Source: Candidatus Poribacteria bacterium | Lineage (GTDB): Bacteria > Poribacteria > DTPJ01 > WJIO01 | Assembly: GCA_014730235.1 (NCBI GenBank) | Contig: WJIO01000445.1 | Span: 1 to 5,194 of the forward strand | Direction of reading: 5' to 3' | DNA length: 5,194 nt | Part shown: positions 1-3,234 of the stretch, piece after piece | Layout: the number at the start of each line of letters is the position of its first letter | Position numbering within the stretch: the first letter of the stretch is position 1 | The notes under the pieces: generated by a model | Told to the model about the DNA's origin: nothing | Seen by the model: the letters and a program-made list of their open reading frames with translations, nothing else | The model's database searches: none | Program-made: the position numbers and the translations under genes

Positions 1-1486
1 GTCTATATGCAAAGACGGCTCTACCTATACCCAGGCGTATAAAATGGGCTTCGTTGTGAGTTTTAACCTCACGATCCACCTCAGGAGGTAGATTAAGAAG
101 CTTCAGCAGTTCCAGAGCCATAGGCTTAATTTCATCCGATGACGGTAAAGCCCGAAATGTCAGCTTATGCTGTCCTTTGGAAAGCTGATGAGTTCCCAGA
201 AGCAGATCGGTTTCTTCAAAGGAATCTGTGCAGAAATTGGCCTCTGGATAGATTTTCTCACCGTCCAGTTCAATATCATAAACACCATGTTCAGGGGAAG
301 AAAAAGTTACCAACCTAACAGCATAACGTCCTTCTTTTGAAACTTCAAAGGGCATGGCCAAAGTAGCACCGGCTTCCATTGCTTTCCATTGTAATGATGG
401 ACGACCTCCAAAAAGCCCTACAGCCTGTAATTTCAACTCTCCCTTTCCCTCAATCTCAGCCTTAGTGAATTTCCGTACCAGGTTGAAATTCTCCCAGGGC
501 ACACATCGCTCTTTATAGGATGGTAATTCTGCGAAAGGTTTTGGTTTTCCTATCTGATACCAATAGGCTATGCTTGATATAAAATCCGGGCGTTCGATGT
601 ACCAGGCTTCTTCTGAATTTTCCCGATTGCCCTTATGTTCTATGGTAACTTTCAGAGATTCTCTGAATCCTACCGGATCCAGTATATGCCATCGGTAGCA
701 TATGCCATTATCACCGGCCCGGTATCCCTGCCATCGTGGTTGACCAAACCAAGGGCTTGTACGCTGTCGGAACCCCCATGCGTCGTTAAAATAATCCTCG
801 CTTCCAGTTCCCTGCAAGCTGGGAATTTCCTCACCGTCAATATAAAAGAAATCGTCCCCCTCACCGAACCAGCCGTCCTGGGACATGGTTATAGACATAA
901 CAGTTCCCACATACTGTCCGCATCCCTCGATGTCGGCAATAAGGTAATCCTGATCCATTACTGCTGGATATTCCCGGCGATATTTGGCGTAGAAATAAGG
1001 TGTATCCGGGGGAAGCTCGTTCAGTTCCACCCAGTCAACCTGCCAGTATAGACCTGTGCGTCGGTCTGGATTATCGTTGGTAACCACAATTCGAGCAGAT
1101 TCGGCAAAAGGCATACGCCAGTAACACGAAAGACTACCTGAAGGAGATACCTGGACAGGAAAGCTGTCCACAACTTCCGGGCTTTGACCAACTGCAAAGA
1201 AATCTCCCAGGGGTACTTCTACACCAGGTTCATCAGAATCATCCCAGTAAATACGCAAACTCAAAGCGTTAAGCTCATTTGCCCCACCGGCATGGCTGGT
1301 AAGCCATATATGGTTAATAACTCCAGGTCCTTTCAGCACCGGCATTTCCAGCACCTCACCGGGAGGGATGGGTGTCATATCAAAATTTCCATCGTTCCAG
1401 TTAGGCTGTTCATTGCTGGAAATCCTGCGATTTCGACCTATGGGAGGGCCGGCAAGAGAGCCCATAAGATCACCGAATAAAGACAT
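1..1486 (-). CDS. GH172 (DUF2961) glycoside hydrolase with C-terminal extension, 3'-partial
   Basis: I read 495 codons from ATG at 1486 to the window edge with no stop, so the C-terminus is missing. The first ~330 residues carry DUF2961/GH172 landmarks: NRRISS near the N-terminus, GPGVINHIW, PLGDFF, CYWRMPF, YFYAKYRREYP, GEGDD, GTGSEDYF, AWGF, YRWHI and AYWYQ. Known GH172 enzymes cleave furanosides (difructose dianhydride/alpha-fructofuranoside, alpha-D-arabinofuranoside). Glu209 (in GEGDD) and Glu230 (in GTGSED) are 21 residues apart, the spacing I remember for the nucleophile and acid/base pair (Glu270/Glu291) of the bifidobacterial enzyme, so the active site looks intact. Residues ~340-450 look like a beta-sandwich accessory domain (EGRYAVRLVTF, GVYDIELDGEKI, KGQHKLTFRA). 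From ~456 a more helical stretch starts and leaves the window. No signal peptide is seen, so a cytoplasmic location is likely. It lies 22 bases after the protease frame's TAA, so the two are probably co-transcribed. The substrate is unknown. Confidence 0.9.
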   Translation of the reverse strand, partial: MSLFGDLMGSLAGPPIGRNRRISSNEQPNWNDGNFDMTPIPPGEVLEMPVLKGPGVINHIWLTSHAGGANELNALSLRIYWDDSDEPGVEVPLGDFFAVGQSPEVVDSFPVQVSPSGSLSCYWRMPFAESARIVVTNDNPDRRTGLYWQVDWVELNELPPDTPYFYAKYRREYPAVMDQDYLIADIEGCGQYVGTVMSITMSQDGWFGEGDDFFYIDGEEIPSLQGTGSEDYFNDAWGFRQRTSPWFGQPRWQGYRAGDNGICYRWHILDPVGFRESLKVTIEHKGNRENSEEAWYIERPDFISSIAYWYQIGKPKPFAELPSYKERCVPWENFNLVRKFTKAEIEGKGELKLQAVGLFGGRPSLQWKAMEAGATLAMPFEVSKEGRYAVRLVTFSSPEHGVYDIELDGEKIYPEANFCTDSFEETDLLLGTHQLSKGQHKLTFRALPSSDEIKPMALELLKLLNLPPEVDREVKTHNEAHFIRLGIGRAVFAYR

Positions 1487-1508: not shown

Positions 1509-2213
1509 TTATATGGCTTCGATCCATGCGGCGTCATTCATGTAAGCTTTTACATATTCATAGGACATAAAACCTTTCCGGCTGTTATCGCCGGAATTGC
1601 GGATGATAAATACACCGCCGCACGTTTCCGGATCGTCTTTATATCATGAAATTACTATGCAGTGACCGTCAAAAACCTTCGAAGGTGGACTCATCTGGAG
1701 AACTCCGTCCTCCCATTTTGCCTCTTTTGGCCAGCGAAAGCCGCCTAATACAGGATAATTATTGGCTAATGTCTCTTTGATGCCCTGAAAATGTTCCTCA
1801 GTCAGACCTGTTTCCACATCCCACTCTTTGATCCAGTGGTATTTCACCGGGGTTGATTTTACCTTTTCTGCCTTTTTTATGATTTCATCAGACGGCTGTA
1901 AATCAACATCAAATTCGTCCTGATAGGGCAAGTCTTTTTCCTCACAGATTCCATATTCCTGGTAACCATCCCATAATTCAGAGAAAAAAGCACCGTCCTG
2001 TTTACGATCTGCTGCCTTGTGAGATGCCCAGTTGGCAAATTCAACACTGAGCAAAGTACCTTTGCTTTTATTAACAGCAACAGCATATTCCAGAGCGCCT
2101 ACAAAGGTAAAGACAGAGCAGGTTCCTCTTTTGCCCTGGGGTCTGGTGGGCAGTTTCATTTTTTCAAAACGTGGAGTCAAGTCCACTGAGGTTGGTAAAA
2201 TACTTTTTGACAC
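1509..2213 (-). pseudogene. Papain-family (C1) cysteine protease, interrupted by one in-frame TGA
   Basis: Translation from GTG at 2213 gives a papain-like protease: SVDLTPRF, then RPQGKRGTC with the oxyanion Gln26 and nucleophile Cys32, LSVEFANWAS, a YGICEEKDLPY segment, then FDGHCIVIS with catalytic His184. A TGA follows at 1646-1644 as codon 190. Read on in the same frame, the next 44 codons give YKDDPE, then GGVFIIRNSG with candidate catalytic Asn206 and a KGFMSYEYV strand, ending in TAA at 1511-1509. This is the ordinary C1 C-terminus (VGY..., NSWG-like, GY...YEYV), although the Trp usual after Asn-Ser is absent. TGA sits at the conserved Gly of 'GY', one base from GGA. A product stopping at 189 residues would lack the catalytic Asn and probably be inactive. 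No signal peptide or long propeptide is visible, so it may be cytosolic. The start is chosen from GGGAGG six bases before GTG. It is called a pseudogene only because of the TGA. Readthrough or sequencing error remain possible. Confidence 0.85.
1644..1646 (-). other. In-frame TGA inside the protease reading frame
   Basis: The minus-strand reading is ATT TCA TGA TAT AAA GAC, with good family similarity on both sides and no change of frame. A GGA-to-TGA change restores the expected Ser-Gly-Tyr. Immediately downstream only a weak CCG/CGG pairing is visible, so there is no convincing selenocysteine (SECIS-like) hairpin, and Sec is not expected at this position in C1 proteases. Confidence 0.85.
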
Positions 2214-2250: not shown

Positions 2251-2279
2251 ATTATACATTTAATTTCATTAACCTTCAA
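2251..2279 (-). promoter_or_regulatory. Promoter for the protease and GH172 genes
   Basis: On the minus strand TTGAAG (2279-2274, four of six matches to TTGACA) is followed by a 17-base spacer and a consensus TATAAT (2256-2251). Transcription would start near 2244, giving a leader of about 30 bases that contains the GGGAGG site. The -35 box overlaps the last codons of the upstream TIM-barrel gene. The protease and GH172 genes could therefore be expressed apart from the first gene as well as by read-through. Confidence 0.7.
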
Positions 2280-3051
2280 GAATCCGCCGAACGATATTCA
2301 CATTTTCTTCCACCATATCATCTTTATCTCCCCGGTGCATACCTACGTTTACAACATCAGTCGGCTTAATATTCTCAAAGGCAAATTCAAAAGACATTAA
2401 AGGATCAATACGTCCTGCACCCATGATTTTATAACCTATACATGGCTTTTTAATGCTTTTTATACACTCCACAGCAGGAAAAATATCAGCTAATTTAAAT
2501 TTATCACCTTTTCCACTATGCAGACTACCGCAGTTAAAGAAACATACTACATGAAAGTCCACCAGATCAAGGCTATCAACCCAGTAATGAACATCGGGAC
2601 TATGAGCAGCAACTCCCATGGGAATACCCTGAGCCTGTCCGTGCTTGATATGCTCCCGTAGGGCCTTTTCATCTTTTGTCTTGTAAAGATTATCTACAAA
2701 ACCTCCATGAAGATATCCGGCTTTACATCCTATCTCTATACATTTATCAATGGCCACATTCATATCCGGGCAAGTATGGCAGTTAATCTGGGCTATCCAC
2801 TGCAAGGTGCCACCCTCTGCCAGATATTCCGCCGTGGTTTTTACCACATGCGGTGTTTCATTATTTGTTATCATGGTATTAATACCGGCTTTCCAGGCCC
2901 TTTCCCATGTTTCCTTAATTATTTCGGGAGTATTAAACGCAACCATCTCTTTATCCCGATCCCGGTTCTGATGGCTGAAACCCCCAAAGGGATTCGCTCC
3001 GATAATTAATCTGGTTACTTCCATTCCACAAAAATCTACTGTTGGCAGCAT
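2269..3051 (-). CDS. Uncharacterised TIM-barrel protein, aldo/keto reductase-like but without a recognisable catalytic tetrad
   Basis: A complete 260-residue protein starting at ATG 3051, with AAAGGAG eight bases upstream, and ending in TAA. It opens like an aldo/keto reductase (beta strand VTRLIIGANPFGG, residues 12-24) and has the helix/strand rhythm of a TIM barrel: GINTMIT (56-62), LQWIAQI (83-89), AGYLHGG (111-117), IPMGVAAHSPDVH (143-155), VDFHVVCFFN (164-173), CIGYKIMGAGR (204-214), DVVNVGMHRG (232-241). Where true reductases have GxxFFDTAxxYG, this protein reads GINTMITNNETPH, so the active-site Asp and Tyr are not recognisable and oxidoreductase activity is doubtful. His115, His150 and His155, and nine cysteines including Cys91-x2-Cys94, could suit metal or sugar chemistry, which is inference. 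I recall similar LHGG/HHGG proteins without known function in environmental bacteria. It precedes the protease and GH172 genes and may be a sugar isomerase, epimerase or lyase-like partner; function unassigned. Confidence 0.85.
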   Translation of the reverse strand: MLPTVDFCGMEVTRLIIGANPFGGFSHQNRDRDKEMVAFNTPEIIKETWERAWKAGINTMITNNETPHVVKTTAEYLAEGGTLQWIAQINCHTCPDMNVAIDKCIEIGCKAGYLHGGFVDNLYKTKDEKALREHIKHGQAQGIPMGVAAHSPDVHYWVDSLDLVDFHVVCFFNCGSLHSGKGDKFKLADIFPAVECIKSIKKPCIGYKIMGAGRIDPLMSFEFAFENIKPTDVVNVGMHRGDKDDMVEENVNIVRRILEG

Positions 3052-3130: not shown

Positions 3131-3234
3131 AGCAAATGAAAATGCTATCAGGCTGTCATTCCTGCTTCAAGCTTTTTAAAAAGCTTGAAGCAGGAATGAC
3201 ATAGAACTATATTCTTTGAGCATTTTCATCTGTT
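3131..3234. repeat. Nested inverted-repeat element enclosing the 48-bp palindrome
   Basis: ATGAAAATGCT at 3136-3146 is exactly complementary to AGCATTTTCAT at 3219-3229. Further out, 3131-3134 pairs with 3231-3234 (one G-T pair) after a single mismatch. The arms flank the perfect palindrome, with seven unpaired bases on the left and seventeen on the right. A ~104-base element with two coaxial inverted repeats fits a small non-autonomous mobile element or a structured RNA in the leader of the TIM-barrel gene. No flanking target-site duplication was recognised. Confidence 0.6.
3154..3201. repeat. Perfect 48-bp palindrome (REP-like), arms 3154-3177 and 3178-3201
   Basis: Two 24-base arms are exact reverse complements with no spacer. 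The outer ends read TGTCATTCCTGC...GCAGGAATGACA and the centre CTTTTTAAAAAG. The TGTCATTCC/GGAATGACA ends resemble the hairpin tips of REP-type and other dispersed palindromes in many bacteria, which is recall rather than a match I could test. As RNA it would fold into a very stable hairpin. As DNA it could extrude a cruciform. It lacks a following T-run on either strand, so a simple rho-independent terminator is unlikely, although it could still shield a 3' end or slow polymerase. Confidence 0.92.

Follow-up and report, generated by a model that had tools for sequence, protein, structure and literature searches.

A single in-frame TGA at an invariant glycine codon of a papain-family protease gene, most likely a young broken copy or a sequence error

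Introduction

The window, i.e., the whole 5,194-base stretch of DNA analyzed here, is a complete contig (C398) of a 451-contig draft genome (5.53 Mb; estimated completeness, 91.6%), and it contains a papain-like protease frame that is interrupted by a single TGA and then continues as apparently sound protease sequence. This raises the question of whether the codon is a lesion, an error in the determined sequence, or a sense codon that the organism decodes. As set out below, the most likely answer is a gene copy that broke very recently or an error in the sequence, and not a new decoding mechanism.

A protease frame interrupted at a glycine codon

On the minus strand, the window carries, in order, pgeF, rimI, ogt (coding for O6-methylguanine-DNA methyltransferase), a 260-codon gene, the protease frame, and a DUF2961 gene, with all of the genes other than the protease being intact. 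The relevant features are as follows.

2269 to 3051, minus strand: 260-codon gene directly upstream of the protease
2217 to 2226 (bounds approximate), minus strand: ribosome-binding site, AAGGGAGG (GGGAGG), upstream of GTG 2213
1509 to 2213, minus strand: papain-family (C1, PF00112) cysteine protease gene, from GTG 2213 to TAA 1511-1509, with one interruption
2118 to 2120, minus strand: codon of catalytic Cys32, in QGKRGTCSVF; Cys in 21 of the 21 homologues covering the site
1662 to 1664, minus strand: codon of catalytic His184, six codons ahead of the TGA; His in 22 of 22 homologues
1644 to 1646, minus strand: in-frame TGA, codon 190, in a column with Gly in 22 of 22 homologues
1596 to 1598, minus strand: codon of candidate catalytic Asn206, 3' of the TGA; Asn in 13 and Asp in 9 of 22 homologues
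1512 to 1643, minus strand: 44-codon 3' part of the protease frame, coding-like, conserved, and without an internal stop
2 to 1486, minus strand: DUF2961 (GH172-type) gene with its own Shine-Dalgarno sequence, starting at ATG 1486 and intact up to the contig end

Translation of positions 1485 to 2279 of the minus strand yields DGHCIVIS, the stop, YKDDPETCGGVFIIRNSGDNSRKGFMSYEYVKAYMNDAAWIEAI, and a second stop. This confirms the proposal of the initial annotation that the TGA lies in frame at 1646-1644 without any frameshift and that the frame runs on to a TAA (1511-1509) 22 bases ahead of the next start, the DUF2961 ATG at 1486; every coordinate in it that could be tested proved correct. The numbering of Asn206 also holds when codons are counted from GTG 2213, from which the frame extends for 234 codons up to the TAA. 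The span that had been assigned to the observation, 1509-1660, marks something real but takes in only the end of the gene. The sequence upstream of the GTG is AAGGGAGGATAATT, and the ribosome site lies within TATGCGATGACTCAAGGGAGGATAATTGTGTCAAA.

Profile searches bear out the claim that both halves are C1 protease: Pfam Peptidase_C1 (curated cut-off, 20.7) matches the part ahead of the TGA with 25.1 bits over profile positions 1 to 159 and the joined frame with 34.8 bits over positions 1 to 192 (192 of the 220 positions). The nearest solved relative, the cysteine protease 3ois, aligns almost end to end, and an AlphaFold model built with a three-row alignment had a mean pLDDT of 43.9 and was set aside. 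The active-site set is nevertheless divided between the two sides of the stop, with Gln26, Cys32, and His184 before the TGA and Asn206 after it, and termination there removes Asn206, as had been noted. By the standard code, the window copy is thus a broken member of the C1 family, unlike its relatives, which are intact. The five residues that separate His184 from the TGA, CIVIS (1647-1661), all differ from the family consensus, SVLLV; four of these changes are absent from the two nearest relatives, and all five are mild.

The 22 homologues were drawn from the window's phylum and Planctomycetota, and each of them has glycine in the TGA column, the residue that had been anticipated there. Across about 545 genomes of the two phyla, none of the protease homologues found has an internal stop. 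The nearest relative, from another family of the phylum, is 57% identical, and synonymous sites are probably saturated in comparison with it; the single genome of the same order that was examined lacks a copy of the protease. No relatives were found in the viral contigs scanned, and the plasmid search returned two remote C1 peptidases with 26 to 27% identity. In more distant C1 homologues (L034, L035, L038, and L039), DUF2961 is replaced by another C-terminal domain of about 130 residues with the motifs EAESL and SFGIDA.

State of the sequence beyond the stop

The 44 codons after the TGA, which had rightly been described as free of any other stop, have a coding score of 0.13 bits/codon, at the 58th percentile of the real genes of the genome, and the other five frames over the same stretch score from −0.05 to −0.27. 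The tail is 51 to 71% identical to ten homologues, with all 9 of the invariant and 16 of the 18 near-invariant positions retained. When branch lengths were compared on a fixed ten-sequence tree, that of the window's protease came to 0.41 in the tail and 0.47 in the stretch ahead of the TGA. The absence of drift in the tail leaves three possibilities: a very recent lesion, an erroneous base, or a tail that is still translated.

The contig itself belongs to the source genome because it bears a palindromic repeat family that is dispersed through that genome; its presence ruled out a contaminant contig. The copy in the window (3154-3201) is a perfect palindrome with two 24-base arms and no spacer (TGTCATTCCTGCTTCAAGCTTTTT plus its complement), and the REP- or MITE-like family to which it belongs has about 36 copies in 318 kb of the genome. 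A search of the window against Rfam gave only subthreshold matches. The 260-codon gene (2269-3051) has no Pfam or NCBIfam match and, by eye only, resembles a TIM-barrel oxidoreductase or aldolase-type protein.

A recent nonsense substitution or a base error

On balance, we favor the view that one recent nonsense substitution turned the codon of an invariant glycine into the TGA and that the protease gene, present in a single copy, is normal in all other respects. This view accommodates the glycine shared by all 22 homologues, the lack of stops within them, the ordinary use of UGA as a stop in this genome, the tail without decay, the failure of the site to match a bacterial SECIS model (see below), and the placement of the contig in the genome. 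We infer that the base is real. Translation would then end at codon 190, leaving a 189-residue fragment that would keep Cys32 and His184 and lose Asn206, the last strands, and the end of the domain; judging from the C1 fold, such a fragment would most likely be inactive. The DUF2961 gene downstream should still be translated because it has its own ribosome site. Several points temper the preference for a nonsense substitution. There is one assembly, in which a real mutation and a base error look alike, and the lack of further lesions fits an error or continued use equally well. Moreover, internal stops are rare in the genome, so a random event of this kind is uncommon per gene, although chance nonsense mutations are still expected in a few among several thousand genes. 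Should the base be real, it would mark a single pseudogene of an ordinary kind and very recent origin, or else a strain variant.

The main rival is that an assembly, consensus, or sequencing error created the TGA and that the organism itself has an undamaged gene, which we regard as a possible but clearly less probable explanation. It would account for a difference of one base only, with no second lesion and no decay past the stop, in a 451-contig draft in which the window makes up a whole contig of 5,194 bases. Against it, none of the 174 sampled domains is interrupted and the other genes of the window are intact, so the assembly is not generally error-ridden. Recent inactivation and base error, two of the three options offered by the initial annotation, therefore both fit all of the findings; the third, a readthrough switch, has no support.

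Is UGA read as sense?

A code in which UGA is reassigned (code 4 or 25) was rejected, as the genome uses UGA as a regular stop. Of 139 long genes, 28 end in it, and 174 domain matches in the genome (68 of ABC ATPases and 106 of GFO/IDH oxidoreductases) were all free of internal stops; general readthrough of UGA is ruled out on the same two counts. Among the eight tRNA loci checked, the sole tRNA with a UCA anticodon is tRNA-Sec, and tRNA-Trp has CCA. A codon-score scan for further interrupted genes recovered only neighboring genes that start just past a stop; its threshold was so strict that the window's own case was missed, and it therefore does not serve as a base rate.

Leaky readthrough confined to this site, by tRNA-Trp(CCA) or Sec-tRNA, would yield a little full-length protease, either tolerated or serving as a switch. 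The apparent conservation of the tail is in keeping with such leakage, as is the report that in-frame stops retaining a dN/dS below 1 are widespread in bacteria (PMC7918605). We nonetheless consider it improbable: the inserted residue would be Trp or Sec and not the glycine that is invariant in the family, UGA is a normal stop in the genome, and the stop occurs in no relative. Nor is there a sign of conserved programmed readthrough, as the TGA is present in none of the homologues found, all of which are at most 57% identical, and no recoding signal follows it. The more specific idea that selection has kept the UGA as a rheostat, whereby leaky decoding would supply a little full-length, partly active protease beside the DUF2961 enzyme, appears more doubtful still.

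Selenocysteine was a serious rival that had to be put to the test because the genome has the machinery for it, encoding tRNA-Sec(UCA), SelA, SelB, and SelD. UGA really is decoded as selenocysteine elsewhere in the genome, which the initial annotation had missed. SelD (L067, 1408-2529) is itself a selenoprotein, with an in-frame UGA in the usual motif THGAG-U-ACK and a good bSECIS hairpin, and its gene lies beside a hypE-like gene. According to this reading, SelB would direct selenocysteine to the protease UGA, and the product would be a selenoprotein. Nearly all known selenoproteins have counterparts with Cys (PMC13188914), whereas the protease site aligns with Gly in all 22 homologues and never with Cys or Sec. 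We further coded a bSECIS model with constraints from PMC13188914, requiring a loop of 3 to 9 nucleotides whose first two positions include G, a position 16 to 37 nucleotides after the UGA, an upper stem of at least 4 bp, and an energy of at most −7.5 kcal/mol; 28 of 400 random coding sites (about 7%) pass it, and some true bSECIS elements lie outside it (PMC13188914). The UGA of selD passes (−10.2 kcal/mol; spacing, 33 nucleotides), and the protease TGA fails. A stem-loop does exist downstream of the latter (−17.3 kcal/mol), but it is not unusual (z, −1.45), and its UAUU loop lacks a G at the first two positions. With an invariant glycine and the SECIS failure, selenocysteine was rejected as a highly improbable explanation. 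The case carries the caution that an in-frame UGA in a selenoprotein-making genome must be tested against selenocysteine; here, both standard tests (Cys counterpart and SECIS) turn out negative, and selD passes the SECIS one.

Least probable of all, the notion of a split protein, with each half made separately and the two then assembling, draws on the intact tail and nothing more, and it was rejected because the tail has no usable start, the sole in-frame ATG past the TGA lying beyond Asn206 and leaving about 19 residues.

Comparison with known systems

Like the conserved in-frame stops described in bacteria (PMC7918605), the protease frame has a single stop with coding-like sequence on both sides, but its stop was found in no second species; given that in-frame stops are generally widespread in bacteria, a lone unconserved one adds nothing new. 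With bacterial selenoproteins, such as the organism's own SelD, it shares an in-frame UGA in an organism with Sec machinery and differs in having neither a Cys counterpart nor a bSECIS match. In common with papain-family C1 peptidases (PF00112), it has the QG..TC, DGH, and RNS motifs and, in the joined frame, a match to 192 of the 220 profile positions; it departs from them in the in-frame TGA before the Asn, and no propeptide was seen upstream.

The protease, whose downstream partner in the window is the DUF2961 gene, also precedes a DUF2961 gene in two further genomes from the phylum (L003 and L021), and in Planctomycetota (L030 to L033), a C1 protease domain is N terminal to DUF2961 in one polypeptide. 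The association has already been reported, with PF00112 listed among DUF2961 fusions (PMC8812541). The fusion in Planctomycetota and the adjacency in the window's phylum suggest that the two act together, and the intact protease family is therefore likely to work with the DUF2961 (GH172-type) enzyme. The window thus matches the planctomycetal C1 peptidase-DUF2961 proteins in both domains and in their order, with two adjacent genes in place of a single polypeptide.
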